Source: Paragyromitra xinjiangensis (Eukaryota > Ascomycota > Pezizomycetes > Pezizales > Discinaceae). Taken from it: a DNA stretch of 64,000 bases. The notes beneath the pieces were generated by a model. It ran no database searches. It was not told the DNA's origin and worked only from the letters and a program-made list of their open reading frames with translations. This document shows, in pieces, positions 3,931 to 64,000 of this stretch. The translations under genes were made by a program, and so were the position numbers. Position 1 is the stretch's first letter, and every line of letters begins with the position of its first letter. The stretch covers positions 496,001-560,000 of the forward strand of contig JBCAMK010000021.1 of NCBI GenBank assembly GCA_038503065.1, given 5' to 3'.

Positions 3931-5406
3931 CTGAATCGTTGGCTTTGGTTTTTTTGATAAAAAGATTTCAGTTTCCTTTATGTTTATTTATCTGTTGGCT
4001 TTAGGAGGGGTTTTTGTCGAGGGTTCATTTCTTTTAGGGTTCAGCCATTTTGTATTTGTTTGGTGTTGTTCCTTTTCATTTATTAATGAGCTTTTTTTTC
4101 CCTAAAACTTTATGTTTATATGATCTGGATATAGTGCATAATGTATGCCTGATGATGCGGCCATGTATTTGGCGTCTCAGAACAGTTAGAAAGCTTAACA
4201 ATCTTTGTCTCTATGGCTCCGAGTACCCAGGCCAATATCATGGTATTGTGCATTGAAGACAACTTATGCGAATAGAATCAAACATTAGTATATCTACTAG
4301 AAATATGTTCTGTTGGCTTCCTAAGGAGTGAGTGACTGGGGGTCTATACAGATCGCTGAAGAGTTGACACGGGAAACCGTGACTTCAATTTAGATACCGT
4401 TTGATACGGCTTAAGAGCTATGAGCAATAGGAAGTCTCTAGAATTTGAATCTACAAGAAACCGACCCCCTTTCCAAAATGCCGATCAAAATATTCGGACA
4501 GGGACCGACTTAGAATAACCGAAGAACGCAACCAGTTTGGCTTTCCTCGCCTCTCGCGAAATCCTTGTATTTATTTACCAATTAGGCACCCTGCTTGAAA
4601 GAGTATTACAAGTTAGCGGGTATGATAACAGTCGTGAGTTTTCACTGGGTAGAGGGACAGCTTCGTAAGTTTTGCTTTGGTGAATACCGTGGTGAGGCGG
4701 TGTGGGCTTTGACGGGAACCGATGAAGTTTCAATCAATATCAGTTTGAAAAGCCTAGGTTTGGAGGTCTAGTATATTTGAGCGACTTATCTCACTATTGG
4801 TTGGTTACTGGCTTACATGTAACTTTGATAGCGGCCGAAGAGTTATAAACGTGTGTAAATTAATAGAAACGATCTTTTAAAGTAGTAGAAAGGAGAGCCC
4901 GATCTGTGGTTGATACACTGCATTGAACACGCAGCCACCACGTGACCAGCCACAGATTTGCGTCAGTCAATCTTTTTGATTTTGCTGATTCTCGTGTCTT
5001 CACGATCAATAAACTACCATCGCTTCACTCTGCGCTCGAGATTTCTCCCTTGGACTGGTTCTTTATCGATCGTCAGTTGACTTTGGATCATCTGATAGCT
5101 TTCTCCTCCGCCGCCAGCACGCCATTACGCTACACCTCGCTAATACATATAGAAAAAATATATCCAAAACGCTGTTTATACGTATACACTTGCGCAATGG
5201 CTCCACCCCCTCCAAAACGGAGACCTACTGTCCTGGTATTATTGTTATTCCCATCCGCAACCTTTCACTTGGAAATGTTCTTAGGGGTTCAATTCAGGCT
5301 CGCAGTCTAACTCTGCTCGGGATATGCTATGATATAGGTAACGGACTCACGAGACCCTGGCACGCGTGGCCCACAGCGTAGGGCATCAGGTGCTTCCATA
5401 CCCTCT
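3931..5406. other. spacer and possible 5' region of the DUF155 gene
   Basis: AT-rich and without a recognisable gene up to about 4900. From 4942 to 5400 the sequence is more GC-rich and short frames are open (for example an ATG at 5197 encoding MAPPPPKRRP). These could be an upstream exon or 5' UTR of the gene that follows, but no splice model is convincing. Confidence 0.35.
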
Positions 5407-31754: not shown

Positions 31755-32343
31755 CTTAAATCACTCGGCTTCACATACCTCAACCTCTTCAACACCACTT
31801 GCAAAGCACGAGAATATCATCCCATCAACCCCACCACCCAATGCCGCAATTGCCAAAAACTTGGACACCACGATGCAACATGCAAAAATGACACTGCCTG
31901 CGCCATATGTGCCCAATCCCACCACACCAAAGATCACAAGTGCTTCACCCCCACCTGCAAAGGAGGAGCCAGATGCACTCACATGCCCCTACGCTGCTGT
32001 AACGGGGGTAGGCCTAGGTAGGTAGGCTAGGTGTACGGCCGTTGCGAAATGGATATAGATCAAGTTCAGAATCCGATTCTTTCGTGCAAACTACTCAAGA
32101 ATCTTAAGGGCTCAATTTTTTTTTTTTTTTTTTTTTTTTTTCAATTAATATTTTATCGCATTGAAGTACTAAAATACTTATGGCGCAACCCCTCACCCCG
32201 CAACAAACAAACAAACAAAAGAAACAAAACACTCCAAATCCAAACTAACTAAACAGACATAATTGAAATCATCCTCCGACATTTCTTTCAAGCATATAAT
32301 CGAAAACATTTTCAATCCAAACGATAAAACCATCTCAAAATTT

Positions 32344-35300
32344 TTACCAAGGAAATATTATTCCAACGCATTTTGCCAATTTCTTTATCAAATCAACTTC
32401 CAACTTATTTCCGTACATAAGGTTTTCCCATGTCAGGTCTCCTTTGAACTTATCTATCAGTTCTCGTCGTTGGGGGGACCACTTCGGGCATTCTATCAGG
32501 AGGTGTTTCGTTCCTATTTCTGCTCCGCATTCGCAAGGTAGGCGAGGGCGACCTAACTCGGGGTCATGGTTGGTCTTTTGGCTTCGTATTAACATCATGT
32601 GAAAGGCTTTTTTAGGGGTGAGATTCTTGACACTTTTGGGGAGGTCCCATTCCACTGGGATGTAGGCGTCATTCGCTACCCTTTGTGTCCATCGATCTAG
32701 CATATCTTTCTTCAGGGCGTCTATCTGCTCGAATTTTTGTCTTATGTTTCCTTCTGTCTGGAAGGGGAGGAGGAGTTGTTTAATTCTTGCTATTCCGCAT
32801 TGGAACTTGGTGGTTCGGAGGGGGGCGACCGGATGGTTTACTAGTATTCGTTTAAGAGGATGATCTTCGGGCCCGCAGAGAATGCGTGTGCCGTATATTC
32901 GTGAGCGGTAATCGAGGAAAAGGTTTAGAGGAGGCATGCCCGCTTCCCTTAAAAGGCGGGTAATTTTGGTGAAACGTGGGAGTTTGGTTATCAACCTTGC
33001 CATTGCGTGGTATACCGGAGATAGGGCGTCAAGCAGGTGGGGTGCGCCTGTCCACCAGACTTCGCTGGCGTAGAAGACCATGGGGATAATGATTTGATAT
33101 ACCAGATTTCTGATGGTTCGGTGATTAAATTTGTTCCATTTGGATCTGATGTTGGTGATAATTCCCCATGCTTTGCTTATTTTCCCATTTATATGGTCGC
33201 TAAAGGTAAGGCGGTTGTCTATCCAGACTCCTATGTATTTTACCTTTTTCGACGGATGTATGGCTTGGTTTCGGATGACGACTGGTCTATTTGAATCTGC
33301 CTTCCCAGAGGTGAGGGGTTTTAGGAATAGGAGGTCTGACTTTTCCAATTCGAATTCTAGGCCCAGTTGGTCCGCTATTTCTATCCTGTCTCTCATTCTT
33401 CTTTGGAGTCGTCCGACTAAGTAGGTTTCCTGGTTTGCACCTTGTAGCAAGCCGTCATCATCTACGTAGCCTGTATCCAGCTCTGTGGGTATTCGTGGGT
33501 TTTCCGGAGGGATCATCATTCCGGCGTAGATCATGTAAAGAACTGGGGATATGGGTGAACCTTGAGGTGTTCCTATCCAGACTGGGTTTAGTGGGCCGCT
33601 TTGTCCATCAAATGACATGTAGTAGGTTCTTTCGGATAAGAAACTTTCTATCCATTTGACCATGTATTTCGGGAAGGTTAAATGTTTTAGGATTTTTATT
33701 GCATGTCCATGAATGAGGCTGTCGAAGGCGCCTTTTACGTCGTTCGTGAGGAGGGCTGGTCGGATGACTGTACGTGACTGACTTGACTTGGCGCCTGCTG
33801 TTGGAACCTGTAACCAAGTGTTCGCTGGTGTGATTGTTCTCATGAGGGCATCCACCGCATTTAGGCCTCTTCTTGCTCCAAACTGTGTCGACGATAGGGC
33901 TCCGGTGAGTGATCCGTATGTTTCCAGGCGGGAGGCAACTATTTTCGAAAGGAGTTTATCGAAGCATGACAAGAGGCATATTGGTCTATAAGCTTTCGGT
34001 TGGGAATAGTCGGGTCTTCCTGTTTTGGGAACTGGGACGCAGATGGCCTTTTTCCACTCCCTTGGGTGAATTCCGAATCTTAGGAGGGCGGTGAACATTT
34101 CCATGAACATGTCTCTGTTTGCATTTACTGCGGCCAAAAGGGTAGGATATCTCAGTTTATCTGAGCCCGGAGCGGACTTTGCTGCGCATGACCTTAGGGC
34201 TCGGATGATTTCTTGTTCAGAAACTTCTTCAAAGGCTTCTTCCAGGTTCATGAGGGGATCCCTGATTTTCCCCATGTCCAGGCTGGGTTCGTCTTTCCTG
34301 CTCGACGGGAAAAACCTCTCCCCCAAATGTCGACATTTGCCCTCAAAAGAACTTTCTCCTAGGATTTCTGGGACCGGTGCTTTGCTTTTCGGTTTTGTGA
34401 TCAGCTTCCAGGCTTGGGCTTTAGATGCCTTTTCCATCTTTTCCTGTTCGGATTTGGCTTTCGCTTTTCTGACACTTGATACCCAGGATCTTGTTAACTT
34501 CTTAAGGGTGTTTCGATTATCCTCACTGGGATTTTTCCTGGTATGGCGTTCGAAGGCTTTTAGCTCCTTCCTTTGAGTTTTGAGCTGTGTGGTCCACCAT
34601 TCCTTCGATCTCTGGCAAGGCTTGGACCAGGGGGTGGTCACGTCCATGGTGTTGTGCAATATTTGAATGAAGAAGGAGGCGCTGAGACGGGTGTTATCTT
34701 CTGTGTCCCATTCCAGGGGAGGAATTTCCGCTATGAGTCTGTGGAACTCGGGCCAGTCGGTTTTATGCCATAGTCTTCGAGGGATAAATTTTGGGGGGTT
34801 GAAATTAAATGTGAGGGTTATCGAGCCGTGATCTGAGCCGAAACCGTCTTCGTTTATAGACCAGTTGCAGAAATTCTTTGCCCAGCAGCCATTAGCAAAG
34901 GCGAGGTCTATGATTGTTGGCCGGTTTCCGTTTCGGGGGAAGTGTGTAAAGCGTCCTGGAGGGTTTAGGAGGGTTAAGTTTCTTTTTTCGGCAAAGTCTG
35001 GTAGGGGAGATCCTCGAATGATGTCGTGATATTCCTGACTTTGAATTCCGTACCAGAGTTTATCGTGCGCATTGGTGTCTCCTAAAAAGAGGGTGTTTGA
35101 ATCGAAAGGTATGGTTTCTAACTGTTGGGTTAAAAATTTTGGTTGGGGAGAATAAAAGGCTATGATTGTAAGGGGTTTCTGGTCCATCTGTATCCGTATC
35201 CCGATAGCGAGGTCCTTCCAAGTATAAATAATCCTGGGTTGGAATCCCCATCTCTTACGTACCAGAATGACTGTCCTAGGAAAACTTGAAGGAAATAAAA

Positions 35301-35481
35301 CATCAAAATTAACAACAAAAGGAAAATTTCCATTTTTATCTGTCCAAACATCTTGCAAAGTAACAAAAGAAATTTCCAAATCCATTTCACAATCCTCCAA
35401 TACTGCCTTTGTGGTGACTTCGTTTTTGGCACAGTTCAGCATTCTGACCAGAAGTCTTTTCCGTATTGGTGTATTATTCAT
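32344..35481 (-). CDS. LINE-D ORF2: endonuclease and reverse transcriptase, 1045 aa
   Basis: ATG-initiated, sharing ATGA with the ORF1 stop. The APE-type endonuclease occupies the first 230 residues (LFLGDTNAHDKLWYG; GSDHGSITL). The reverse transcriptase has KAYRPICLLSCFDKLLSKIV, LTNDVKGAFDSL, GTPQGSPISPVLY and catalytic YVDD at residues 672-675. After the thumb region the protein ends about 130 residues later with a Cys-His motif (CECGAEIGTKHLLIEC). No YTDGS, NEDAE or DNQNA motifs occur, so RNase H is missing and the protein is about 190 residues shorter than the A and C homologues. The frame is otherwise complete. Confidence 0.95.
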   Translation of the reverse strand: MNNTPIRKRLLVRMLNCAKNEVTTKAVLEDCEMDLEISFVTLQDVWTDKNGNFPFVVNFDVLFPSSFPRTVILVRKRWGFQPRIIYTWKDLAIGIRIQMDQKPLTIIAFYSPQPKFLTQQLETIPFDSNTLFLGDTNAHDKLWYGIQSQEYHDIIRGSPLPDFAEKRNLTLLNPPGRFTHFPRNGNRPTIIDLAFANGCWAKNFCNWSINEDGFGSDHGSITLTFNFNPPKFIPRRLWHKTDWPEFHRLIAEIPPLEWDTEDNTRLSASFFIQILHNTMDVTTPWSKPCQRSKEWWTTQLKTQRKELKAFERHTRKNPSEDNRNTLKKLTRSWVSSVRKAKAKSEQEKMEKASKAQAWKLITKPKSKAPVPEILGESSFEGKCRHLGERFFPSSRKDEPSLDMGKIRDPLMNLEEAFEEVSEQEIIRALRSCAAKSAPGSDKLRYPTLLAAVNANRDMFMEMFTALLRFGIHPREWKKAICVPVPKTGRPDYSQPKAYRPICLLSCFDKLLSKIVASRLETYGSLTGALSSTQFGARRGLNAVDALMRTITPANTWLQVPTAGAKSSQSRTVIRPALLTNDVKGAFDSLIHGHAIKILKHLTFPKYMVKWIESFLSERTYYMSFDGQSGPLNPVWIGTPQGSPISPVLYMIYAGMMIPPENPRIPTELDTGYVDDDGLLQGANQETYLVGRLQRRMRDRIEIADQLGLEFELEKSDLLFLKPLTSGKADSNRPVVIRNQAIHPSKKVKYIGVWIDNRLTFSDHINGKISKAWGIITNIRSKWNKFNHRTIRNLVYQIIIPMVFYASEVWWTGAPHLLDALSPVYHAMARLITKLPRFTKITRLLREAGMPPLNLFLDYRSRIYGTRILCGPEDHPLKRILVNHPVAPLRTTKFQCGIARIKQLLLPFQTEGNIRQKFEQIDALKKDMLDRWTQRVANDAYIPVEWDLPKSVKNLTPKKAFHMMLIRSQKTNHDPELGRPRLPCECGAEIGTKHLLIECPKWSPQRRELIDKFKGDLTWENLMYGNKLEVDLIKKLAKCVGIIFPW

Positions 35482-37208
35482 TGATCCATGTTTTGGACTT
35501 CAGGAGGGTTCAAGGGGGTTTGTTGGAATCTTTCTGCGCGGGCTTGGAGGATGACTTTCATTCTTGTGGGGCAGTTGCGATCGTTTGCTTTGTGGCCTGG
35601 TTGGCCCGGGCAGTTTATGCATTTTGTAGGGGGGTGGGTGCACTTTGGGCCTCCTTCGCAGCTCTGGCATTTGTGCTCACTGGTGATGTGGCTCTCGCTA
35701 CACACCGCACAGGTAGGGTTTTCTGCTTTGCACATGGAAGAGACGTGGCCGTATCTGCAGCAATATCCACATAGGGTGTCGCTTCCCAGGGCGTTGTATT
35801 TCGCTAGTCTGCATATTTTGTTGAAGAGGATGAAGTGATCAGTACCGATCAATGTTTTGGGGTTTGCGTTTTTGGCGCCGTCTTCACAGGCGAAGCATAT
35901 AACCATAGACGAGTGTTGTTTGTTTGCTCTTGCTTCTGGCTTGGAGAGCCAGCGAGGAATCTGTGCCAGGGTCAAGCTTGGATATGCGATTTTCAATTCA
36001 GATGCCATCATGTTTCCCCCGTCTTGTCCGTCCCCGATTGCAGTTGGGATTCCATGAACAATGTATTTCGCCCATGGTTGGTTGACTCTGATTGTCGCCG
36101 CTTTTAAATTTATGTCTTGCAAGGCTTTGAGGATCTCGTTTTTATATGCGTATACTGAGGAGGCAGGGGTGTCAAAAGGCGTTTCGCAGACCAGGTTGTT
36201 CTTGTTTGTTTTCCGAACGAGGATAACGTTCAAGTTGGTGGACTTAAGGACTTCGTTTATGGTTTCCTTGATCCTGTTTATTGGGGGGATTTCTGGGAGG
36301 GACCCTTCGATTTCCACCACTAATTCACGGTCGACTCTGCTGTAATCCGGCTTAATAAGGGGAGTGATCTTTTTTGGCTGTTTTTTCCTCTGGACTTCGG
36401 TGAATTTGTCGGCTTCTTGTGCGGCAATCGCAGCCCAAGAGTTTGGGGGGGAGGGGATTGAGGATTGGTGTTGGGATTGGGTTAGGCTCTGTAGGGGGGC
36501 CGTTTCCCTTGTTTGTGATGTGATCGGGGCAGGAATAGAAGTAGTAGGCTGTGGGGGGTTGGACGGAGGGGGTGGAGGTCCTGGTTTTCCTGTCCTTCCG
36601 CGGGGTTCTTGTCCTTGTGTCATGTTCTTAACTGACTGAGAAAACTGTCTAGCCAGGGCGTTTTGGGCCTGTTCAAGGCCAATGAGTCTCCTGCTGAATG
36701 TCTTGTCCAGCTCGGTTAGCTTATCCACGAAAGTGTTAAACATCATGAGGTTGCTGTTTCTGGTCATCCATGTGTTATAGTTGATGGTAGGCCAGTGTGC
36801 TCCCTGCTCGGTCAGGCGGGACCTTTGGTGGGTATAGTCTATGTTGAACTGGTAGTCTTTCACGAAATCTTCGTGTATTGCTGGGGGGCAATCCGAGGAG
36901 AAGGGTTCCTCGGGGAGAGTTAGGTTAGGGGGTTGGTCCATAAACTGGGTGCCTCCAGTATAAGTTTGTGCCGTGAGGGGTGGTCCTGACAGGTTGGACG
37001 GGCCGGCTGACCCCATGGTGGAGGATTCTCCCATTTCAAGATCCTGGGAGTCGGGGATGGTGGAGCCCACTTGTTGGACTATGTCGCTTGCTACTGAGGA
37101 ATGCCTGGAGTCTCCGAGGCGGGCGAACGGGAGGGTTGTTTGCATGGTGGCCCTAACTGGACTGCCCTCACGGGTGCCCTGAAGCGAGGAAGTTCTTTTG
37201 GATGCCAT
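35478..37208 (-). CDS. LINE-D ORF1: gag-like zinc-knuckle protein, 576 aa
   Basis: Starts at an ATG (MASKRTSSLQGTREG). The N-terminal half is polar and Ser/Pro-rich. A central domain has VDRELVVEIEGSLPEIPPIN, NVILVRKTNKNNL and VNQPWAKYIVHGIP, then RWLSKPEARANKQHSSMVI. Three Cys-His clusters follow: CGYCCRYGHVSSMC, CAVCSESHITSEHKC and CINCPGQPGHKANDRNC. It has the same layout as the A, B and C proteins but only distant sequence similarity. The stop TGA overlaps the ORF2 ATG (ATGA at 35478-35481). Unlike A and C, its start is a good ATG and lacks the TPPRRSPSP extension. Confidence 0.93.
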   Translation of the reverse strand: MASKRTSSLQGTREGSPVRATMQTTLPFARLGDSRHSSVASDIVQQVGSTIPDSQDLEMGESSTMGSAGPSNLSGPPLTAQTYTGGTQFMDQPPNLTLPEEPFSSDCPPAIHEDFVKDYQFNIDYTHQRSRLTEQGAHWPTINYNTWMTRNSNLMMFNTFVDKLTELDKTFSRRLIGLEQAQNALARQFSQSVKNMTQGQEPRGRTGKPGPPPPPSNPPQPTTSIPAPITSQTRETAPLQSLTQSQHQSSIPSPPNSWAAIAAQEADKFTEVQRKKQPKKITPLIKPDYSRVDRELVVEIEGSLPEIPPINRIKETINEVLKSTNLNVILVRKTNKNNLVCETPFDTPASSVYAYKNEILKALQDINLKAATIRVNQPWAKYIVHGIPTAIGDGQDGGNMMASELKIAYPSLTLAQIPRWLSKPEARANKQHSSMVICFACEDGAKNANPKTLIGTDHFILFNKICRLAKYNALGSDTLCGYCCRYGHVSSMCKAENPTCAVCSESHITSEHKCQSCEGGPKCTHPPTKCINCPGQPGHKANDRNCPTRMKVILQARAERFQQTPLNPPEVQNMDQ

Positions 37209-38021
37209 CAGGCCTTGCGACCGTGATTAAATTTGTCCGTGAGGTAGGGGGAGGTTGGGGCTTTGTAACTAACAGCTATAGGCGAAACGAAGTGGTGGTG
37301 TGGGTAGCGACTCCTCACTTTCACTTGGTGCGGGGTAACTTGAAGCTGTGGAATAAAGACTTATCGTGAGATTTCTGTGTTGCGTGGTGGTTGGATTTCC
37401 CGTTTAGGAAGGTGTGGGTTCGGTTCGAAGGCTCAACTATCGCTGAAGAATAGAGCAGCAGGGTGGAGCATTCGCGATGTATTTAACACCTGCGTTCCGC
37501 AGTCCTCGCTCTGCCGTGCTCTAGTGGGGGGACTGGGTTTGACCCGGAGTCCCATTGCCAAATGGACTGGTGTTCTACTCCGGAAGACCTTTCGTACTTC
37601 CGGGGGCTATGCTCCAAGTGCTGCCGCACCTCCATTAGCAATCTGACCACTCTAGACTCTATGAACCACCGGCATAGTCCTGCACACTGCAGTCCTACAT
37701 GCGTGGCACAGTTCAGTCTAATCCGCATGTGTATTATCTGTAGATAGCGCTGCCAGTGCATTGCCTATCAGCTTCCGCTGATGCATACTGCACAGGTTGA
37801 TTCAGAACTCTACCACTTCCTCGGAGTGGTAGATGCAGCCGTCTATGTGTCATCAGCTCGTCAGCTTATGCACATGCGGTTCCTCTGTATCAACCAGATC
37901 AGTGGGACGCGGTAGCTCTCTGCATGTGGGAGCAACCCCACCGATGCAGGCTCCTACTGTCCCATCAGTCCGGCCCTATTCTACTACACATGCTAGAGGC
38001 AGTAACGGCGTACCCGTTACA

Positions 38022-39316: not shown

Positions 39317-41398
39317 TTTTTCCAATTTCCAATTTCAATTTATTTTAGACAGTCGCTAACCTAACTAGCTACTGAATGGCACGCGTATAAGAATACATGG
39401 CCTCATCCACCGCCAACCTCACAACCCCTACACTCCCAAGTTACAGTCTCTATGGTACGAGACCAACCGCACGTTCCGTTACAGGACAGGCCACTAGGAA
39501 GCACAAAAGAAAGCGTACAAGAACACCACAAGGGGAAATTCAAGCTTAGCGAGTAAAAGGAATAAAAAAACAACAGGTAGGCTAAAAGAAAACTTGATCA
39601 AGGTAAACGAAACTTGCCACATGAAAATATAAAAACAATGCAACAAGAAATCAGTAAGTATGGTCTCTTACCAACCGCACATCCTTTTTACAGGCAGGAA
39701 ATCATTGTTGTTGGTATGAAAGGTAGGCAAAGTAGACAGATCAGGTGTTTGCCGGATGAGGGGTGCGTTTTGCCAGATTGAGTTTGGCAAAATGAGTGCA
39801 GGAGGAACGCTCAAAGGCGCGGTGTCCCTGTTTACAGTTGACACATCTGATGGGGGGGTGGGTGCACTTGGCTCCTTTTTGGCATCCTTTGGTACTGCAT
39901 GGGTGTTGGGCCGTTGGATGGGGCTCAGCGCAGATGGCACAGGCAATGGTGTTGTGGCAGGTCTGTTGGTGATGACCATATTGCTGACATTTCCGACATT
40001 GTGTGGTGGGAGAAATTGAAAAGTATTCCTGGACGCGGCAGGATTTGTTGAACATGGGGATATAAGTTAATCCAAGGGTTGCCATGGTGTATTTTTTGGG
40101 AAGGGCGATAACAATGGCTGAGGCTGCTTTCCCAGCTCTCTGGGCTTCAGTTGTGAGCCAGCGTGGGATTTGGGCTAGAGTGAGGGAAGGTGCGGCAGTG
40201 GCAATGGCCTCCTGTGCCTCTTTCATGGTGGTGGTGGTGGGAACGCCGTGGATGATGAACTTAGACCATCTGGAGTTGGGTCGTACGTCGGAGATGGGTA
40301 GGTGGAGGAGGTTGCAGGCTTCTTCAATCTCTCTCTGATAAAGAGAGCAGACTTGTTCGCCAGATTCTGTGGGTCGGGTGAGGAGAACAAAGTTGTATCT
40401 TTCTGTTCTGGTGCACATAAGGATGGAAGAATTGCGAGGGGAGAGAGTGATGTTGATGGCCTTCAAAAGGGCATCACTGGTGATTTCGTGGGAAGAGGTT
40501 GAGGTTTCCACAATGATCTCGCGATTGATCTTTGTGTACTCGGGGTTGTAGAGGGGGGTGACCTTAGGCTTCTTGGTCTTGTTCGTGGTGGTGATGGCGG
40601 GAGCAGCGGCGGCTTGCGCATATGTGGTGGCTTTTGGACCAGGAGCCTGTGGGGAGACAGGAGCTGGGTGTGGGACGAGAGGGGTGCTGGGTTTGGTAGA
40701 GATGTCTCTGACCAGGGAGGAAAGGGCATTGTTGGCTCTAGAGAGCTCGTTGATGCGGGAGGTAAGGGTGAGAATGTCGGATGCCTGGTGCTCCAGTCTG
40801 TTGATGAGTGCTTGCTGGTTGAGTTGCATTTGCTCCGTTAAGGCTGCAAAGCTGTTCTGGATGGTCCACAGCATATATTGCTGGACGTCTTTGCCATCCT
40901 CTTCTGCTGGGACTTCGGGAGCGTAGTCTTGTTCAGGGGAGAAAGGGAGGTGGGAAGGGGGGGCGCTGGTTTGCTGGGGTGGGAGGGCTGAGGAAGAAGA
41001 TTCCCCCATGTCGAGATCTTCTGCGAAGGCAGACAAAGCAGTGGAGCCAAAGAGAGCCATCTCTTTTGAGGGAGATGGGGTTCTGGCTGGTTGGGGTGAA
41101 GGGTTGGAGAGCTGGCGCTTCCTGGGGATGGGGCCTTTCTTGCGGCCGTTCCCTTTGGTGAAGATGGGTGGCAGGCGCACGTCCACCAACTTGACAGGTG
41201 ATGGGGAGGGTGAAGCTGAACGTCTAGGAGGTGTTTGTGGAGGATCCAGTGTGATTTCCACGGGTTGCGACCGTGAAAACTGAGAGCGGGGTAAAGGTGG
41301 TGAGAAATGAAGCCGAAGAATTAAAGACTTTTTGCTGTGTGTAACGCCGTTGCAACGTAGCTTCTGGAGTTTTGCAGGGATCTTTTTCGCGTGCAGGA
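39317..41398 (-). mobile_element. C1: gag-only derivative of LINE family C
   Basis: 2082 bp between target copies TGAGGCCCAA at 39307-39316 and 41399-41408. It has the same 5' end as C2 (sense TCCTGCACGCGAAAAAGATC) and a family-C 3' end (AATTTCC-type repeats), but only ORF1 between them. There is no ORF2 and no trace of one, so it is a compact non-autonomous form rather than a simple 5' truncation. Confidence 0.88.
39741..41060 (-). CDS. C1 ORF1: gag-like protein, 439 aa from first ATG
   Basis: The first in-frame ATG is at 41060 (MALFGSTALSAF), but the frame is open to the very 5' end of the element (41408), adding about 116 codons that include LDPPQTPPRRSASPSPSPVK. That stretch is conserved in C2, A and F although no ATG precedes it. 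The main body has QQYMLWTIQNSFAALTEQM, INREIIVETSTSS, VRPNSRWSKFIIHGVPT and RWLTTEAQRAGKAAS. Three Cys-His clusters: CRKCQQYGHHQQTC, CAICAEPHPTAQHPC and CVNCKQGHRAFERSSC. Intact and of similar length to the C2 protein. It would bind element RNA; enzymes must come from another copy. Confidence 0.9.
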   Translation of the reverse strand: MALFGSTALSAFAEDLDMGESSSSALPPQQTSAPPSHLPFSPEQDYAPEVPAEEDGKDVQQYMLWTIQNSFAALTEQMQLNQQALINRLEHQASDILTLTSRINELSRANNALSSLVRDISTKPSTPLVPHPAPVSPQAPGPKATTYAQAAAAPAITTTNKTKKPKVTPLYNPEYTKINREIIVETSTSSHEITSDALLKAINITLSPRNSSILMCTRTERYNFVLLTRPTESGEQVCSLYQREIEEACNLLHLPISDVRPNSRWSKFIIHGVPTTTTMKEAQEAIATAAPSLTLAQIPRWLTTEAQRAGKAASAIVIALPKKYTMATLGLTYIPMFNKSCRVQEYFSISPTTQCRKCQQYGHHQQTCHNTIACAICAEPHPTAQHPCSTKGCQKGAKCTHPPIRCVNCKQGHRAFERSSCTHFAKLNLAKRTPHPANT

Positions 41399-41680
41399 TG
41401 AGGCCCAATTTCCAATTTCCAATTTCATTTAATTTTAGACGGTCGCTAACCTAACTAGCTACCCGAATGGTACGCGTATAAGAATACATGACCTCATCCA
41501 CCGCCACTCTCTCTTCCCCGTGATAAACAACCAACAAAATAAAGAAAACTAATAACAAAATAACACTTCGAACCAAGGAAATCAAACAACAATAAATAAA
41601 TCAAAACTATAACATATTTAAATGAAATATCCAATAACCGGAAACAAAAGAAAAGCTTCCCCCGCCCGGTTTACCAGTTT

Positions 41681-44600
41681 TCATTCTTGATCTAGCAAAT
41701 TGCAATTGGAAATTGCGTCCAAATATGAATTCGAGGATAGTTGGACCAGATTATTTGTTCGGATAAAATGGAGTAGGTCGGTTGCGTTGGTATTGTTCAA
41801 TATCGCGTTGTGCCAGTCATTTCCCCATTGAGGTCGTGAGGTGGTATTTAGTGGGCAATGTAGGGCTAAGTGAACTGATGATGATATTTCACCACATGCA
41901 CATGTCGATGGAGGGGTTAGAGGATTTGGATCCGCTTTGGTTTGATTTGTGCGTAGCAGGGAGATGGCTCGTGCTTGGGATCGTCGGAGGAATCTGATGA
42001 CCGTGGGAGGTTTTAAGGAAACTGAAATGGATGTTTCTTGTTGCCATTGTGTTAAGAGCTGTATTTTGGGTTGTAGGCAGAGCCAACCTAAGGTTGTGCA
42101 CGTATGTTTGCATGGGCGTTTTGTTAGGCCCTCTTTGGCCATGCGATCTGCTACCTCGTTGCCTTCAATGCCCATGTGAGATGGGGTCCAGCGTGCAGTT
42201 ACCGAGCAATTAAGATTGTGTAGGGTGTGGATGTGTGCTAGGGCGTCATTTAGGAATTGTCTGTTGGATGTGGGTCCTCCAGTCAATGCTTTGATCGCGT
42301 TTTGATTGTCGATGCACAGGTAAATGTCAGCGTTGTCTATCGGTAGATTTTTGATGAGGTGTGAAGTGGCTTCTTGAATTCCGTGCAATTCAGCGTCTTC
42401 GTTTTCGCAGTGGTGTCCCAGGTTGCAATTGCCTGTGTGTGATTGGAGGGTAACTCCGGCAAAGATGTGGCGGATATTCCAGCCTGCTGCGGTGATACCA
42501 GTTTCGGATTTGGAGCCATCTGAATAAACTACCCAGGCGTTGTTGAGGGAATTTATCCAATCTGTGTGTGAAAGTGTTGCTGATTGTTTGGTGCCAGCTA
42601 TGTGGATGTTGTTTTGTGGGAGAAATGGATGTGTGGGTAAATGTAAGGCTTCAAGAGGGGGACCGCGGAGGAGTTTGGAGAGGACGCTACCCACTCTTTG
42701 TAGTCCTGTGCCTATGAAGCTGTTATGGTGTATATGCTGTTGTAGGATGTGGTGGATGGGGTTGTTGGGGTTGCGTAATATGCGTATCGCATATAACTGT
42801 GTGCGCATGTCCAATAATAGATTGAGGGGGGGTAGGCCTGCTTCTGGTAGGAGTTTGTTGATGGGGGTGAATTTGGGGAGGCCGGTTATGAGTCGGGCTA
42901 CTCTATGGTAGGTGGGGGCGAGACGATTGAGGATGTCTGAGGTGCCGGTCCACCATACCTCAGAGCCGAAAAGGGCTGCTGGAAGGATGATGGTGAGGGC
43001 TAGTTGGTGTAGGAGGTGTGGTGTTGGGCCCTTGCTTTTGACAAGGTTGTTGACTAGAAAGATTGATGTTCGAAGTCTGGAAGCTGCTTTCTGGCAGTGT
43101 GTGTGAAAATTTAATCGTTGGTCCAAGATGATTCCTAGGACCTTGATTTGTGGGGATGGATTGATAGTTTTATTGAATAGATGTATGTCTTGTTTGATCG
43201 TGAGGCTGCTGCTGGAAGGAATGAGATGAAGCAATTCGGTTTTGGGTTCGGAGAAGGTTATATTGAGGAAGGCGGCTCTTTGTGCCTTGATCTCATGTCT
43301 TTCCGTGAGTCTCTTGGTGGCAAAGAGCGGAGTTTTTGCTAATTGGAGGGCTGTGTCATCATCAATGTAAATGGTGGAAGATTCGTTTGGGGAGGTATAG
43401 GAACAATCAAGGGCCGCTGCATAAATGACAAAAGCTATTGATGACAGTGGTGATCCTTGTGGGAGACCAATTTTGAGCGGAAGTGGTGTTTCCAGGTTCC
43501 CATTTATCCTGAAGGCGAGTGTGCGATTGGTGGTGAAGCTGGACATCCATTTGATGCACCAGTTTGGGAATTGAAAGTGTTGTAGAATTTGCGTTAGGTG
43601 GGGGTGTGAGACGCAGTTAAATGCACCATCTATGTCTGTGGCGAGGAGAGTGGGTCGGAGTGGTAAGCGCTGTGTTTTTCTGTCGTTGTTGGTGATTGGT
43701 ATGAGGAGCTGCTTTTGTGCTGGGGTGAGTATTAGGTGTAGCGAATCTATTGCAGATACACCCCTTCTGGCACCTGTGTGATGAGGGCGGATAGCTCCGT
43801 TGAGGGTGGCATATTGTTCCAGTCTTTTTGCTATTATTTTTTCCAGGAGTTTGCCTAGGCATGATAATAGGGACACTGGGCGATAGCTTTTGGGGTCAGA
43901 ATAATCCGCCTTGTTTGATTTGGGGATGGGGACACAATGTGTGATTTTCCATCTGTCGGGCATGTGTCCTAATTGGAGGAGGTTGTTGAAGAGGGTGGAT
44001 AGTAGGGCTGGGCGGGCTCTGTGTGTTTCTCTGAGTGTGAGGTAGTTGAAGCCGTCTGCGCCCACTGCTGTACGCATGTTTGAGTGTTGTAGCAGGTTTT
44101 CTATTTCGTGAGGGGTGATGATGTGTGTGAGGTGGCTGGTGTCCATGAGAGGGGGGGGAAGAAAACTATTTGGAAGGGGGGGAGGTTCATTTTGGGGCGG
44201 GAAGAAAGTCTGGCGAAAGGATGTGCCTATTTCTTCGTTGGTTGAATTGCCTTGTATGGATGGGATTGTGGATTTGTTTCGGGCGGAGGATTTGTTTAGA
44301 AGGTTCCATGCTGCGCCTGGGTTTAAGCCTTTGAGGGTGAGGTGCCAGTGATTCCATTTTGCTATGGTGATCTCAGCTTTCCATGTTTGTCTCACTTGGT
44401 TGGCTTGTTGCCGGATGTTGGGAGGAGAATTGGGTTTGCGTTGTTGTTTTTCTAGCCAGGCTAGTTTTCGTTTGAGGGTGGATAACTGAGGTGTCCACCA
44501 GCTTTTGGCTCCGATTTTTGGTTTGGAAAGGGGAACCGTGTTCTGGATGGCCCTGTTGATTAGATTTTCGATGTGGTTGAGGGTGTTCTCCATTGTTTGT

Positions 44601-45409
44601 ATGTTTCTGTAATCAAGGGGAATCGCTCCTTCCTGAATGATTTTGTGGAAGGCGGGCCAGTTGGTTTTCGAATATAGGTGTCGAGGAATGTAGGAAGGGG
44701 GGTGGAGGTATAGGGTTGTTTTTGTTGTAATGTGATCTGAATTATGTTCATCTGAGGGGGGAGCTGACCAAGGTCCTAATGTGTCGGTGAGGCCCCTCGC
44801 GAATGTGAGATCAATTGTGGAGGGGGAGCTTCCGTTTCTTGGGAAGTGAGTGAAGATGCCCGGTTTATTGAGGAGTCTGAAGTTGTTGTTTTCCAGCCAT
44901 TCCGTCATTGTTTCGGTGAGGTGTAGGTGCCTGGAAAAGTATCGATGAGATGTTTCGGCTTCTGCTCCATACCACCATGGGTGGTGTAGGTTGAAGTCAC
45001 CTGCTAGTATGGCGTTGGTGTGGAAGGGGTGTGATAATAGTGGCAAGTGGTGATTATCGTTGGCTCGAGGTTGGAGGTATAAATTGCATACTTCTAATTT
45101 GATGTGTGCAGTTTGGAGTGTGACCGCAATTATGTGTGGATTGGGTTTTAATGTGACGATTGTTTTGATGTTTAAGTTCTTTCGTATATAAGTGACAACT
45201 TTAGGAAAAACGCAAGGAAAGTATGTGTCGAAATTATTTGCTGCTGGTGGTAGTCCATTGTGATCTAGCCAGGGTTCTTGTAGCATTTCAATGAGGATGT
45301 TGTTGGATGAATCTATGTCGCGGATTACTGAAAGGGTAGAGGCCTGTCCTTTGGCACAGTTCAGTTGCTGCACCATGGCTATGCCTGATAATATCGGGTG
45401 TGGCTGCAT
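41681..45409 (-). CDS. LINE-C2 ORF2: endonuclease, reverse transcriptase, RNase H, 1242 aa
   Basis: ATG at 45409 shares its A with the ORF1 stop (TAATG). Endonuclease: ILAGDFNLHHPWWYG and NSDHITT within 230 residues. Reverse transcriptase: YRPVSLLSCLGKLLEKII, ATDIDGAFNCV, GLPQGSPLSSIAF and catalytic YIDD at residues 681-684. RNase H: VYSDGSKSE near 961, CENEDAELHG, CIDNQNAIKAL and SHMGIEGNEVADRMA. A Cys-His motif lies near the C-terminus (CACGEISSSVHLALHC). Domain order and length match family A; the sequence is clearly diverged. No disabling change seen, so this copy could supply enzymes in trans to C1. Confidence 0.95.
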   Translation of the reverse strand: MQPHPILSGIAMVQQLNCAKGQASTLSVIRDIDSSNNILIEMLQEPWLDHNGLPPAANNFDTYFPCVFPKVVTYIRKNLNIKTIVTLKPNPHIIAVTLQTAHIKLEVCNLYLQPRANDNHHLPLLSHPFHTNAILAGDFNLHHPWWYGAEAETSHRYFSRHLHLTETMTEWLENNNFRLLNKPGIFTHFPRNGSSPSTIDLTFARGLTDTLGPWSAPPSDEHNSDHITTKTTLYLHPPSYIPRHLYSKTNWPAFHKIIQEGAIPLDYRNIQTMENTLNHIENLINRAIQNTVPLSKPKIGAKSWWTPQLSTLKRKLAWLEKQQRKPNSPPNIRQQANQVRQTWKAEITIAKWNHWHLTLKGLNPGAAWNLLNKSSARNKSTIPSIQGNSTNEEIGTSFRQTFFPPQNEPPPLPNSFLPPPLMDTSHLTHIITPHEIENLLQHSNMRTAVGADGFNYLTLRETHRARPALLSTLFNNLLQLGHMPDRWKITHCVPIPKSNKADYSDPKSYRPVSLLSCLGKLLEKIIAKRLEQYATLNGAIRPHHTGARRGVSAIDSLHLILTPAQKQLLIPITNNDRKTQRLPLRPTLLATDIDGAFNCVSHPHLTQILQHFQFPNWCIKWMSSFTTNRTLAFRINGNLETPLPLKIGLPQGSPLSSIAFVIYAAALDCSYTSPNESSTIYIDDDTALQLAKTPLFATKRLTERHEIKAQRAAFLNITFSEPKTELLHLIPSSSSLTIKQDIHLFNKTINPSPQIKVLGIILDQRLNFHTHCQKAASRLRTSIFLVNNLVKSKGPTPHLLHQLALTIILPAALFGSEVWWTGTSDILNRLAPTYHRVARLITGLPKFTPINKLLPEAGLPPLNLLLDMRTQLYAIRILRNPNNPIHHILQQHIHHNSFIGTGLQRVGSVLSKLLRGPPLEALHLPTHPFLPQNNIHIAGTKQSATLSHTDWINSLNNAWVVYSDGSKSETGITAAGWNIRHIFAGVTLQSHTGNCNLGHHCENEDAELHGIQEATSHLIKNLPIDNADIYLCIDNQNAIKALTGGPTSNRQFLNDALAHIHTLHNLNCSVTARWTPSHMGIEGNEVADRMAKEGLTKRPCKHTCTTLGWLCLQPKIQLLTQWQQETSISVSLKPPTVIRFLRRSQARAISLLRTNQTKADPNPLTPPSTCACGEISSSVHLALHCPLNTTSRPQWGNDWHNAILNNTNATDLLHFIRTNNLVQLSSNSYLDAISNCNLLDQE

Positions 45410-46821
45410 TAAGCAGAGTTGGTGTTGATTCGGGAGGATTTGAGGCTCTCAGTGAGCTTGGTGTAAGCGATGCAAACTTTTCGTTCGTAGGCTTTATGCC
45501 CTTGGTTGCAGTTAGCGCAGCGGATTGGGGGGTGTGTGCACTTAGTGCCTGCAGGGCATCCAGTGGTGGTACAAGGGTGTTTGGAAGTTTCGTGGGTTTC
45601 CGCGCATACTGCACATTTGAAATCCTTTTTGCATGTTTGTTGGTGATGGCCATATTCTTGGCATCTTCTGCATTGCGTGGTTGGGGAGACTGCGATGTAT
45701 TCTTGTACACGGCAGAAGGAGTTGAAGAGGGGGATTTGGGAGAGGCCGAGTGTCTCCATGGTAAATTTTTGCGGCAGGGCGATGACGATTGCTGAATGGG
45801 TTTTGCTGGCTCTTGCCTCTGGGGTGGTGAGCCATCTGGGGGTTTGGGCGAGGGTGAAGGTGGGAACTGAGATGGACATTTGTTCTGCAACTTCTGCCAT
45901 CGTTGCTTTGGTGGGGATGCCATGGACAATGAATTTGGACCATTTGGAGTTTGGTCTGGCTTCACCAAGGGGGATTTTGAGTAGGGTGCATGCCGTTTCT
46001 ATTTCCTTTTGGTATGCTTGACAGATTTGTTCGGCGGATTCGTCGGGGCGAGTGGTAAGAACGAAGTTATGTCGGGCAGTTTTGGTGCACATGAGGATGG
46101 AGGTGTTGCGGGGGGCAAGTTCCTTATTTATAGCGGCCAGGAGGGAGGAGTTATCAATGGAAGCTGGGACGTCAGCGGAGGTTTCTAGAATGATTTGGCG
46201 GTTTATGGTGGTAAACTGCGGTTGAAAGAGCTTGGGAGGAAGGGGCTTCTTCTTCTTGTTGCCTTTGTTGACCTTGGTGAAGGGAGCACCAGGGGCATTC
46301 GCAGCTTGTGCGTAGGTCATTGGTTTTCCGTCGTTTAGAAGGGGAGTTTGTGGTTTTTGTGCAGGCGGTTTTTGCTGCTGGTTGCTGGCTGGTGCCGGGG
46401 TGCGAGAGGGTTGGCTGGTGTTTTTGTCGATGGTTTGAAGAGACCTGGCCATGTTGTTGAGGGTGGTTGAAAGTTTTCCAACCATTTCTTGAAGGATTTT
46501 GGTCTGATCCGTGAGCCTGAGAATGTCATTCTCCTGCATGGTGATTTTGGCAATGAGGTGGGTATTGTTTTCCTCGGTTTGTGAATTGAGGCGAGCAAAG
46601 CTGGACTTTAGAAGCCAGGCTGTGTATTGCTCCGTGTTGCCTTCATCGGGTATTTCGGGCATGTAGTCTTCGGTTGGCTCGAAGTCACGAAGCCAGTTGG
46701 GGGTGGAATCATCGGGAAGTTCCTGCATGAGGGCTTCGTCAATGTATTGGGAGTCAGTGGAAGGACCAGCATGAGCTGAGTCGAAGAGGGATTGACCGGT
46801 GGAGGGTCCAGGGGCTGCCAT
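45409..46821 (-). CDS. LINE-C2 ORF1: gag-like protein, 470 aa from first ATG
   Basis: First ATG at 46821 (MAAPGPSTGQSLFDSAH); the frame stays open to 47145 without another ATG and reads LDSPQTPPRRSRTPSPSPVK there. Body: YTAWLLKSSFARLNSQTEE, a coiled-coil-like DILRLTDQTKILQEMVGKL, INRQIILETSADVPA and RPNSKWSKFIVHGIPTKAT. Cys-His clusters: CRRCQEYGHHQQTC, CAVCAETHETSKHPC and CANCNQGHKAYERKVC. Stop TAA overlaps the ORF2 start. Intact. It differs from the C1 protein at many positions while keeping all clusters, so C1 is not a fresh deletion of this copy. Confidence 0.92.
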   Translation of the reverse strand: MAAPGPSTGQSLFDSAHAGPSTDSQYIDEALMQELPDDSTPNWLRDFEPTEDYMPEIPDEGNTEQYTAWLLKSSFARLNSQTEENNTHLIAKITMQENDILRLTDQTKILQEMVGKLSTTLNNMARSLQTIDKNTSQPSRTPAPASNQQQKPPAQKPQTPLLNDGKPMTYAQAANAPGAPFTKVNKGNKKKKPLPPKLFQPQFTTINRQIILETSADVPASIDNSSLLAAINKELAPRNTSILMCTKTARHNFVLTTRPDESAEQICQAYQKEIETACTLLKIPLGEARPNSKWSKFIVHGIPTKATMAEVAEQMSISVPTFTLAQTPRWLTTPEARASKTHSAIVIALPQKFTMETLGLSQIPLFNSFCRVQEYIAVSPTTQCRRCQEYGHHQQTCKKDFKCAVCAETHETSKHPCTTTGCPAGTKCTHPPIRCANCNQGHKAYERKVCIAYTKLTESLKSSRINTNSA

Positions 46822-47145
46822 TTGTTTGGATGGAGAGCCTGAGCGAGCGGGGGCTGGTGAGGGGTTGGAGAGGGTTCGCTTCTTGCCGATGAGGGGGAGG
46901 GTGAAGTTGGTGCCAAAGGTTACCAGCTTCACGGGGGATGGGGAGGGTGTGCGGGATCTCCTGGGAGGAGTTTGGGGCGAATCCAGGATGAGTTGGGGCA
47001 ATGCGCCCGATGAAAAGTTGCGAGAGCGGGGAAGTGGTGAGAAATGAAGCCGAAGATTTAGAGACTTTTTGCAGTGTGTAACGCCGTTGCAACGTAGCTT
47101 TTGGAGTTTTGCAGGGATCTTTTTCGCGTGCAGGATGAGGCCCAA

Positions 47146-61375: not shown

Positions 61376-61931
61376 GTACCGGTGGGCTACAGGAAGTGAT
61401 TCTGAAGGTGAAGTAGAGAGTTAAGATTCTACTGTAACGGGGGTAGGCCTAGGTAGGTAGGCTAGGTGTACGGCCGTTGCGAAATGGATATAGATCAAGT
61501 TCAGAATCCGATTCTTTCGTGCAAACTACTCAAGAATCTTAAGGGCTCAATTTCTATTTTTTTTTTTTTTCAATTAATATTGATTTCCGCATTGATGTAC
61601 TAAAATACATATGGCGTAAGACCTGAAGGTCACAAAACATAAATGAACATACATGGAGGAGAAAAGATAACATGGCCAAATGAAATCAAAACCTCCGACA
61701 AGCATCAGACAGAAATCCTAACTCCAGTAACTATGGTCTGCTACCAACCGCACATCTCGTCCAAGAGCAGGGCAAAGGAAATCCGCGCATTCAACAGGTT
61801 ACCCACAAGAACTGGCGAGGTCGTGGGGATCTTCAAACGGGGTGAACTATCAAGCTGCAATGACTATGGTATGTCATCAACCGCACTTCCTGTTACAAGG
61901 CAGGCCGAAAGAATAGTTCGAACAACAGGAT

Positions 61932-62178
61932 GTCTCCAAAGAGACGGTCAAACTGGGTGAGAAGTGCTTGCACTTCTCGGGTAAAAGGGTGAAAGTCTGG
62001 CAAACGAAACTCTCGGTGGACGGGGTGATGATTCCTAGGAAACATCGGTCTTACTGGGTGTCTCCAAGGAGACGAAATGAAATGGGGTGAGGTTAAGCTA
62101 AACAGAACCTCGGTCAATGGGGTGATGATCTGGCGAACGTAATCATCGGTTGAAGCTGGGTGACTTTGGGAAAAGTCA
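61932..62178. repeat. array of about seven hairpin units, roughly 35-nt period
   Basis: Each unit reads (G)GGTG, a 5-9 nt stem, a loop, the complementary stem, then CGGT or similar and about 8-10 nt. Stems differ between units but stay complementary: GAGAAGTGC/GCACTTCTC (61959-61978, loop TT), GTCTCC/GGAGAC (62060-62073, loop AA), GAGGTT/AACCTC (62089-62111), GATGAT/ATCATC (62124-62147), TGACTTT/AAAGTCA (62161-62178, loop GGGA). Confidence 0.8.
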
Positions 62179-62278
62179 GTCAAGCAGGGGGGTCTCTGGT
62201 TTATTTAACGGTCCCAGGCGTTATCCTCTCTGACCGTGTAAAAGTTTAAGGGCTGCTTGCGCCCGTAGTCGATGGGTT

Positions 62279-62752
62279 GTACCTTGCGAGGTACGTCTCG
62301 GAGGGGGGTGGTTAGGCAACCACGGCCAAGAAGGAGGAGGACTGAATTGCTGCATGCTGAATATGATCCCTAAGGTACGAGACAGACATGACAGTATCGC
62401 GTCCGGTGAGGAATGTAAACACAATAGAGGCCCAGCACGATCCCTAAGGTACAGAAGGGAACGACTAAAGTGTGAACGGTGGAGCGGGGGGGTGATCGAA
62501 CGTGTTGCCACACAAGCGAACAGGTGTGGCGCTGTATACGGGTGGGGAACCGATGTTCCCCGAAAAGCGGGGTTGCTACGCATGGCTCGGTTGAGTTGCG
62601 TAACAGGGTCAAACGGGGGCCCCAACCTCCAAAGGAGTTGGGGTATCGTGGAATGAGTGAGAGCAAGGACGCGAACGTTGCTCTCGTGTAGGCGGGGAAG
62701 GAGTCAAGATATTAACTCCATTCAAGCGGGGATGAATTCTCCAAGAGAATTC
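62279..62752. repeat. further short perfect hairpins in E1
   Basis: GTACCT/AGGTAC (62279-62294, loop TGCG), GTGGTT/AACCAC (62308-62323, loop AGGC), GGGGAAC/GTTCCCC (62544-62561, loop CGAT), GAGAGCAA/TTGCTCTC (62659-62685) and GAATTCTC/GAGAATTC (62734-62752, loop CAA). E2 repeats the first two at +1472. Confidence 0.8.
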
Positions 62753-63040
62753 GGTTGTAATGGTGCCACTCAGGCGAAACGAAGTTTCATGAGTGGAGTT
62801 GTCGAGGCGTTGTTGAGCTCGCTAAGCTCAGATTCCGTAGAGTTTGATGGCGAACATGAACCAGCAGTGACCATAGGTGATACTGGGGTCGACAGAACGC
62901 TCGTACGGGTGAAAGGGGTATGGATAGAGCGATATAGCACCGGCGAGGTGCTTATCCATGATCGATGAAGTTGGGATTAAAGAGGGAAAACCCACGATGT
63001 CGCAAAACCCGAAGGTTAGGCGGTGGTTTCGAAGGCTCAA

Positions 63041-64000
63041 TTCAATTAATATTGATTTCCGCATTGATGTACTAAAATACATATCGCGTAAGACCCGAAG
63101 GTCGCAAAACATAAATGAACATACATGGAGGAAAAAAGATAACATGGCCCAATGAAATCAAAACCTCCGACAAGCATCAGACAGAAATCCTAACTCCAGT
63201 AACTATGGTCTGCTACCAACCGCACATCTCGTCCAAGAGCAGGGCAAAGGAAATCCGCGCATTCAACAGGTTACCCACAAGAACTGGCGAGGTCGTGGGG
63301 ATCTTCAAACGGGGTGAACTATCAAGCTGCAATGACTATGGTATGTCATCAACCGCACTTCCTGTTACAAGGCAGGCCGAAAGAATAATTCGAACAACAG
63401 GATGTCTCCAAAGAGACGGTCAAACTGGGTGAGAAGTGCTTGCACTTCTCGGGTAAAAGGGTGAAAGTCTGGCAAACGAAACTCTCGGTGGGCGGGGTGA
63501 TGATTCCTAGGAAACATCGGTCTTACTGGGTGTCTCCAAGGAGACGAAATGAAATGGGGTGAGGTTAAGCTAAACAGAACCTCGGTCAATGGGGTGATGA
63601 TCTGGCGAACGTAATCATCGGTTGAAGCTGGGTGACTTTGGGAAAAGTCAGTCAAGCGGGGGGGTCTCTGGTTTATTGAACGGTCCCAGGCGTTATCCTC
63701 TCTGACCGTGTAAAAGTTTAAGGGCTGCTTGCGCCCGTAATCAATGGGTTGTACCTTGCGAGGTACGTCTCGGAGGGGGGTGGTTAGGCAACCACGGCCA
63801 AGAAGGAGGAGGACTGAATTGCTGCATGCTGAATATGATCCCTAAGGTACGAGACAGACATGACAGTATCGCGTCCGGTGGGGAATGTAAACACAATAGA
63901 GGCCCAGCACGATCCCTAAGGTACAGAAGGGAACGACTAAAGTGTAAACGGCGGAGCGGGGGGGTAATCGAACATGTTGCCACACAAGCGAACAGGTGTG
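63041..64000 (-). mobile_element. E2: second tandem copy of element E, cut by the window edge
   Basis: Begins after GGCTCAA (63034-63040) with the same 3' end but a much shorter A/T tail than E1. It is aligned at an offset of 1472 and nearly identical; differences include AGACCTGAAGGT to AGACCCGAAGGT and GTGGACGG to GTGGGCGG. Confidence 0.85.

Follow-up and report, generated by a model that had tools for sequence, protein, structure and literature searches.

Tandem hairpin-chain elements, probably non-coding parasites of LINEs, in the genome of Paragyromitra xinjiangensis

The stretch of the Paragyromitra xinjiangensis genome analysed here (64,000 nucleotides, positions 496,001 to 560,000 of contig JBCAMK010000021.1; hereafter, the window) ends in a tandem of an element, E1, whose 1.1-kb body is conserved as structure: hairpins follow one another in a chain, and the linkers between them are short and often C-led. 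The structure is under selection, tails and insertion sites are shared with LINEs, E1 has a target duplication, and E1 and LINE copies stand in mixed tandems. From these features, E1 is probably a non-autonomous, non-coding non-LTR retroelement that is mobilized by a LINE of the same window, LINE-D, and whose body is kept as structured RNA; a sister family, E2, would depend in the same way on another LINE, LINE-F.

Units, copies and partner LINEs

The 1,472-bp unit of E1, together with its A-tail and 5′ target duplication, spans window positions 61557–63040 (minus strand), and a second copy follows head to tail at a spacing of 1,472 bp. The two copies are 98% identical, both over a 300-nt reference and over all 1,472 nt, which bears out the head-to-tail repeat of about 1.48 kb that a first-pass annotation of this DNA had described. 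Its extent of 61551–64000 captured a real repeat, but 64000 is only the edge of the window: copy 2, the 3′ part of which occupies 63041–64000 (minus strand), continues to window-equivalent position 64512. In the extended locus, L009, the tandem copies lie at 1570–3041 and 3042–4513. The T-run at 61557–61570 of the plus strand is the A-tail of copy 1 on the minus strand; the E1 RNA is therefore the minus strand, and position p of the RNA of copy 1 corresponds to window position 63041 − p. Accordingly, the loops listed in the first-pass annotation (TGCG, AGGC, CGAT, CAA and GGGA) are plus-strand readings. At the 5′ end of copy 1 (63028–63040, minus strand), the target duplication TTGAGCC is followed by TTCGAA, as in LINE-D, and both tandem copies start with TTGAGCC. 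On the 3′ side lies a remnant of the target LTR (61433–61550, minus strand), which ends in CCGTTACA in RNA sense.

A search of the genome (48.2 Mb in 22 contigs) recovered at least seven full-length E1 copies, 91.7–100% identical to the window unit, and, when seeded with a distant E1 match, a second, diverged family, E2, with at least nine full copies, each about 1.26 kb long, and at least seven fragments. Copy counts for both families are lower bounds because the search scores best candidates only. Aligned copies measure 1,472–1,481 bp in E1 and 1,255–1,271 bp in E2. The two families are 73–77% identical over their longer matches and differ in 3′ tail and target; E2 copies also occur in tandem. 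Satellite DNA was considered as a description of these elements and dropped in view of their fixed retroelement ends. On each of six contigs (C1, C2, C3, C10, C16 and C21), the E1 or E2 copies cluster within about 0.25 Mb, in surroundings that, where read, are dense in retroelements and appear centromere-like.

LINE-D (32116–37429, minus strand), the presumed partner of E1, has an ORF2 with endonuclease and reverse transcriptase and sits in the same LTR site. A protein search with ORF2 returned 15 distant proteins, and one with the LINE-D ORF1 frame found nothing. E1 and LINE-D end in a common 3′-terminal hairpin (61588–61617 in E1 copy 1, minus strand), which is presumably the recognition site of the reverse transcriptase; its stems are ATGTA/TACAT in E1 and AAGTA/TACTT in LINE-D, and AATATTAATTG and a run of A’s follow in both. 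All eight LINE-D-type tails that were fetched lie at TTGAGCC|CTTAAG (five exactly, three with one change). Just upstream of four of these tails is a LINE-D-type ORF2, and the other four have no ORF2 match among the best 125 of 531 candidates scored. The same LTR site forms the 5′ flank in six of the seven full E1 copies, the seventh being flanked by its tandem neighbour, and the 3′ flank is LTR in four copies, E1 in one and a LINE-D-type 5′ end in two. The target duplication TTGAGCC is clear in E1 and LINE-D; that of E2 is less sharply bounded. At their 5′ ends, E1 and LINE-D have in common only TTCGAA and a weak similarity seen by eye. The terminal hairpin, A-tail and LTR site confirm the earlier observation that the 3′ end and insertion point of the unit match LINE-D, and the shared LTR target, the terminal hairpin and the mixed E1/LINE tandems support its interpretation as a non-coding parasite of that LINE.

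E2 is associated with LINE-F, a second autonomous LINE, with which it has a terminal hairpin in common. A recognizable LINE-F tail is found at five of nine LINE-F ORF2 matches, 88–108 nt past ORF2. Together with an ORF1-only element, O2, E2 and LINE-F share a TTTCTT site in another LTR: TTTCTT occurs within about 15 nt after nine of nine full E2 copies (five read on the reverse complement), and follows all eight O2 tails and all five autonomous LINE-F ends. In E2-type tandems, the next sequence is the 5′ end of another element, which itself starts with TTTCTT. That the targets lie in LTRs is apparent from the spacing of their matches, with two pairs about 7.2 kb apart for the E1 target, on contigs C14 and C9 (among the best 40 of 153 candidates), and six pairs 5.6 kb apart for the E2 target (among the best 40 of 203). 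The E1-target LTR has the ends TGTAACGG...CCGTTACA in the two copies read. Both target sites are in sense orientation, 50 and 56–60 nt after a TATA-like box (TTAAATA and TATATAAG, respectively).

The hairpin chain

Defined by at least six Watson–Crick pairs and a loop of 3–12, perfect hairpins number 13 in the window copy of E1, 14 in another E1 copy and 12 in each of two E2 copies, compared with 2.1–2.4 in dinucleotide-shuffled sense strands (60 shuffles for each of four of the 16 copies; 2.4 for the window copy). Six control segments of the window contain 0–6 hairpins, against 2.0–3.4 in their shuffles. Folding-energy z-scores are −3.7, −3.7, −3.0 and −2.1 on the sense strand and −1.0, −1.2, −2.0 and −1.6 on the antisense strand, but energy is a weak discriminator here, with one control segment of the window at −3.8.

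In E1 copy 1, the chain extends over 61932–62952 (minus strand; RNA positions 89–1109), and many linkers are 11–15 nt long and often led by CCC. The linker-spacing analysis took in six of the 16 copies. Gaps of 11–15 nt account for 12 of 25, 11 of 21 and 11 of 22 in three E1 copies, whereas shuffled sequences have 0.45–0.75; the excess is weaker in three E2 copies (5 of 18, 5 of 19 and 5 of 21; p = 0.01–0.04), and four control segments have 0–2 such gaps. CCC stands within 5 nt after the hairpin in 11 of 22 and 15 of 20 cases in two E1 copies, against 1.7 and 1.9 at random places, and in 8 of 15 and 7 of 16 cases in two E2 copies, against about 0.9. Only one of the four copies shows an enrichment of ACC ahead of the hairpin. 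One stretch of hairpins in E1 (61925–62196, minus strand) is internally duplicated, with RNA positions 845–988 and 977–1116 being 63% identical, and no such repeat was seen when E2 was compared with itself.

Covariation was assessed in a 16-copy alignment of both families (A2), in ten helices whose columns are common to E1 and E2. Of 944 cells in these helices, 99.5% are paired, compared with 89.7% (s.d. 0.7) after shuffling and 35–45% when the partners are slid. Both sides have changed in 19 of 59 pairs (14.0, s.d. 1.5, in shuffles), comprising 109 both-side-changed cells (42.6 in shuffles), and further pair types number 25, below the 30.6 of the shuffles. Because the ten helices had been picked for pairing in both families, the whole search was rerun on column-shuffled alignments. 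Without the non-crossing rule, the real alignment yields 11 helices with 63 pairs, 20 of them double-changed; 60 column shuffles give means of 2.8, 12.7 and 1.0 for these three counts and maxima of 8, 36 and 6. Double changes are also found within families (GACGAT/ATCGTC versus GATGAT/ATCATC in E1_C13, and GAGAT/ATCTC versus GGGAT/ATCCC in E2_C3b), and some hairpins in equivalent positions have very different stems in the two families, such as GTACCT/AGGTAC in E1 and TGGGAT/ATCCCA in E2. Given that the covariation rests on two families, most double changes represent one event each. Stems that failed to covary would have spoken against the first-pass annotation; they do covary between the two families, and its description of the RNA as a chain of hairpins agrees with the hairpin excess, the covariation and the regular linkers. 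As paired stems change on both sides at 20 pairs versus 1.0, the RNA has been selected as structure and is not a decayed coding fragment.

Searches of Rfam with E1 and E2 gave nothing credible (best E-value 1.7). They include no credible match to a tRNA-, 7SL- or 5S-derived Pol III head, and none to an HDV-like ribozyme, a divergent form of which could escape Rfam, or to a hammerhead ribozyme, the hallmark of retrozymes. Eight of the 16 copies have only heptamers that resemble the hammerhead core, and their position is not the same in all eight. Transcription by Pol III was considered and dropped, as there is no credible head; several T-runs were seen by eye. In the search for homologues elsewhere, exact patterns have no match in viral contigs or prokaryote genomes.

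A possible, although somewhat doubtful, origin of this structure is that E is an old LINE-D copy in which template switching has put a host non-coding RNA in place of the interior, and that the structure is that of the captured RNA. There is a precedent in MINE, which joins a 1.1-kb non-coding RNA to LINE 3′ ends, according to its description (PMC2104539), and the ends of E resemble those of the LINE while its body does not. However, the body did not turn up on its own, since every long match to it among the best candidates is an E1 or E2 copy or fragment, and Rfam offers no credible source. Both families also keep changing with compensation, which argues that the structure has been selected after any capture.

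The ACCAUA domain and ORF1-only elements

Near their 3′ ends, E1 and E2 elements carry two 75-nt hairpin pairs, built around UGCGGUUG and ACCAUA. These loop and flank sequences are invariant in 16 aligned sequences. Pairing holds in 97.7% of 128 cells, compared with 75.5% in shuffles; seven of eight pairs are double-changed (4.5 in shuffles, 14 of 500 of which reach seven), and double-changed cells number 30, against 7.2. In E1 copy 1, the 3′ domain lies at 61710–61784 and the 5′ domain at 61843–61917 (minus strand; 78.5 and 87.3 bits with model R1), and copy 2 has R1 matches at 63182–63256 and 63315–63389 (minus strand). Matches in E1 hold by construction, because R1 was built partly from E1. 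Within the window, R1 finds the domain in E1 and in one further element, O1, only.

O1 (39318–41403, ends approximate, minus strand) is an ORF1-only element with an open frame of 569 amino acids, and has its two ACCAUA domains at 39429–39503 and 39637–39711. We take it to be of the same kind as HAL1, a non-autonomous LINE derivative that codes for ORF1. It has its tail and target in common with LINE-C and is present in at least 25 genomic copies. A search with its ORF1 protein gave two matches, the better of which is a Morchella sextelata protein (40% identity over 48%). LINE-C (window positions 41404–47142) lies within the part of an LTR element that encodes integrase and has a TTGGGCCTCA duplication. 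Genome-wide it forms head-to-tail arrays, with 49 neighbouring pairs among the scored ORF1 matches whose starts are about 5.7 kb apart.

With one mismatch allowed, the ACCAUA pattern occurs at 86 places in the genome and its reversed control at one; the pattern overlooks domains whose spacer is 6 nt, among them most 5′ domains of E2. Among the best 150 of 540 ORF1 candidates scored, 25 loci are the nearest to O1 (at least 94%), and in 24 of them the motif stands 65–69 nt downstream. None of the other 125 has it within 400 nt, and the one motif within 5.3 kb of them belongs to a neighbouring E1 copy. The domain is also absent from eight LINE-D-type tails, eight O2 tails and five LINE-F ends (221–451 nt of each), and R1 does not find it in the O2 element of locus L016, so not every non-autonomous element possesses it. 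O2, the second ORF1-only element (L074–L081, and L016 at 205–1989), has a tail and site of the E2 type. On contigs C2, C4 and C13, its tails are spaced about 2.17 kb from one another, which suggests that O2 stands in tandems.

E could have been moved by the ORF1-only elements, with ORF2 supplied by a LINE from elsewhere, rather than by LINE-D itself. O2 does match the tail stem of E2 (AAGCA/TGCTT) more exactly than LINE-F does (AAGTA/TACTT), but the site and tail class of E match autonomous LINEs, and ORF1 alone has no endonuclease or reverse transcriptase, and we consider this route unlikely. Less likely still is that the hairpin chain is a feature of the DNA, through cruciforms or centromeric chromatin, rather than of the RNA. 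The grouping of same-contig copies within about 0.25 Mb, in repeat-rich regions, would fit such a role, as would the equal numbers of GU and AC changes inside E1 (13 and 14 cells, with the window copy as reference), a result that gives no proof of strand-specific pairing; nor does RNAalifold, run on the entire alignment, tell the strands apart (−400 sense, −413 antisense). By contrast, the ACCAUA domain, whose loops and flanks are invariant in the 16 sequences compared, keeps one orientation relative to the 3′ tail and retains GU pairs, and on the RNA strand the C-led linkers come after the 3′ arm.

In the window copy of E1, no stop-free stretch exceeds 160 amino acids, a length attained by 16–17% of shuffles; the maximum in E2_C2 is 121, attained by 48%. 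In 15 of the 16 aligned copies the length is ordinary (the observed value is attained by 8–83% of 200 shuffles), in keeping with the earlier remark that the unit lacks an open reading frame of note. The exception, E1_C10a, has a stretch of 233 amino acids that none of 200 shuffles attains; it is not kept, because the close relative E1_C10b has only 145, elsewhere. ORF1 coding of the HAL1 type was not found in E1 or E2 in reading-frame scans and the window comparison. When four E copies were compared leniently with window positions 1–61540, the matches comprised only the 3′ end of LINE-D, the 3′ part of O1 and one weak stretch of 48 nt. We give next to no weight to the possibility, raised in the first-pass annotation as one that would count against it, that E derives by decay from the interior of a coding element, with hairpins due to chance or composition: copies do carry many point changes and the stretch in E1_C10a is exceptional, but it is lost in the relative, the other 15 copies are unremarkable, the LINE interiors of the window do not match E, and the hairpin excess and both-side changes disfavour decay.

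Proposed mobilization and known systems

For E1 as a LINE-D parasite, transcription would probably start in the host LTR, given that the site is in sense and 50–60 nt after a TATA-like box. The LINE-D enzyme would bind the terminal hairpin of the RNA, nick TTGAGCC|CTTAAG in the LTR and copy the RNA by target-primed reverse transcription, steps suggested by the tail, site and target duplication that E1 and LINE-D have in common. Tandems would follow if the upstream half-site is restored at the 5′ end with each insertion. ACCAUA domains occur in E1, in E2 and in an ORF1-only element and were not found in the sequence of autonomous LINEs that was examined; they probably help foreign RNA to capture LINE proteins, a role in trans-recruitment that the hairpin chain may share. 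The chain might also bind Gag or resist degradation, as the first-pass annotation suggested. E2 would do likewise with LINE-F. A bolder hypothesis, which we offer tentatively, is that E1 and E2 are RNA-only parasites akin to satellite RNAs. The C-led hairpin chain might then be a multivalent docking platform for the LINE ORF1 protein, and ACCAUA a portable signal that beats the preference of a LINE for its own message, a domain that parasites of three LINE families would have in common or have passed between them.

In plan, E is closest to R2 SIDEs and MoTeR2, with some resemblance to MINE. The R2 SIDE and R2/R1 hybrid SIDE of Drosophila are described as LINE ends joined together, with an HDV-like ribozyme at the 5′ end, located in 28S rRNA genes (PMC3414825). 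Like E, R2 SIDEs are, in that account, non-autonomous and site-specific, have ends in common with the LINE that supplies the machinery and keep a 3′ structure by compensatory change (PMC3414825); unlike them, E has a structured 1.1-kb body of its own, no ribozyme that we could find, and LTR targets. MoTeR2 of Magnaporthe, as described, resembles E in being fungal, in its presumed dependence on the reverse transcriptase of a partner, in its head-to-tail mixed tandems and in its unrelated middle (PMC7367193). It has both 5′ and 3′ termini in common with MoTeR1, including 860 bp at the 5′ end, and is located at telomeres (PMC7367193), whereas in E the 5′ end in common with the partner is only short, and a conserved chain of hairpins makes up the middle. 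MINE (WEIRD-MGL), from the rice blast fungus Magnaporthe, is like E in placing a non-coding RNA of about 1 kb before a LINE 3′ end, and MINEs are reported to be template-switch chimaeras with 5′-truncated MGL (PMC2104539); E differs in its fixed junctions, its fixed target and its lineage of two families. In stringent LINEs, recognition by the reverse transcriptase needs a stem-loop in the 3′ UTR, and the same has been proposed for L1 and Alu (PMC5135761). That work concerns human L1, Alu and other LINEs; we infer such recognition for the hairpin of E.

Because R2 SIDEs and MoTeR2 have a similar plan, the suggestion in the first-pass annotation of an undescribed element class was too strong, and E is better described as a LINE-dependent kind that resembles them, most likely a non-coding LINE parasite. 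Among open-licence papers, we found no described element with a kilobase chain of hairpins and linkers, nor the ACCAUA domain. The RIME, NARTc and SIDER elements of trypanosomatids are short and dispersed, have a 5′ signature in common with an autonomous LINE and bear the Pr77 hallmark; we know of no hairpin chain in them. Classical SINEs are roughly 100–600 bp long, a range that both E families exceed, and E has no Pol III head by Rfam. Unlike HAL1, E has no coding that was found.

To our knowledge, the ways in which non-coding parasites overcome the cis-preference of LINEs are understood mainly for Alu. Here, one genome holds three LINE systems, with ORF1-only and non-coding parasites that have or lack a defined 75-nt RNA domain, and because the three systems share or lack this domain, the question of cis-preference becomes directly testable. 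A kilobase non-coding element that is kept by compensatory change suggests that evolution as a structured RNA, and not as a gene, is open to a retroelement. The LTRs, for their part, are landing sites that may lend a promoter.

Single ACCAUA domains also occur outside E and O1, in L041 (1489–1563) and L042 (1497–1571), the latter after an ORF1-like reading frame that contains stops. Degenerate domains in L082 (886–1067) and L052 (1468–1545) precede, on the upstream side, tails of a third type (GCCATAAC...GCATG) and are possibly the remains of another parasite family. Rfam matches in the relatives were sub-threshold only, in L082 outside the ACCAUA domain (MIR842 at 38 bits and TtnuCD25 at 22, with a cut-off of 85 each). 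L082 also contains a repeated insert-like stretch that has many copies genome-wide.
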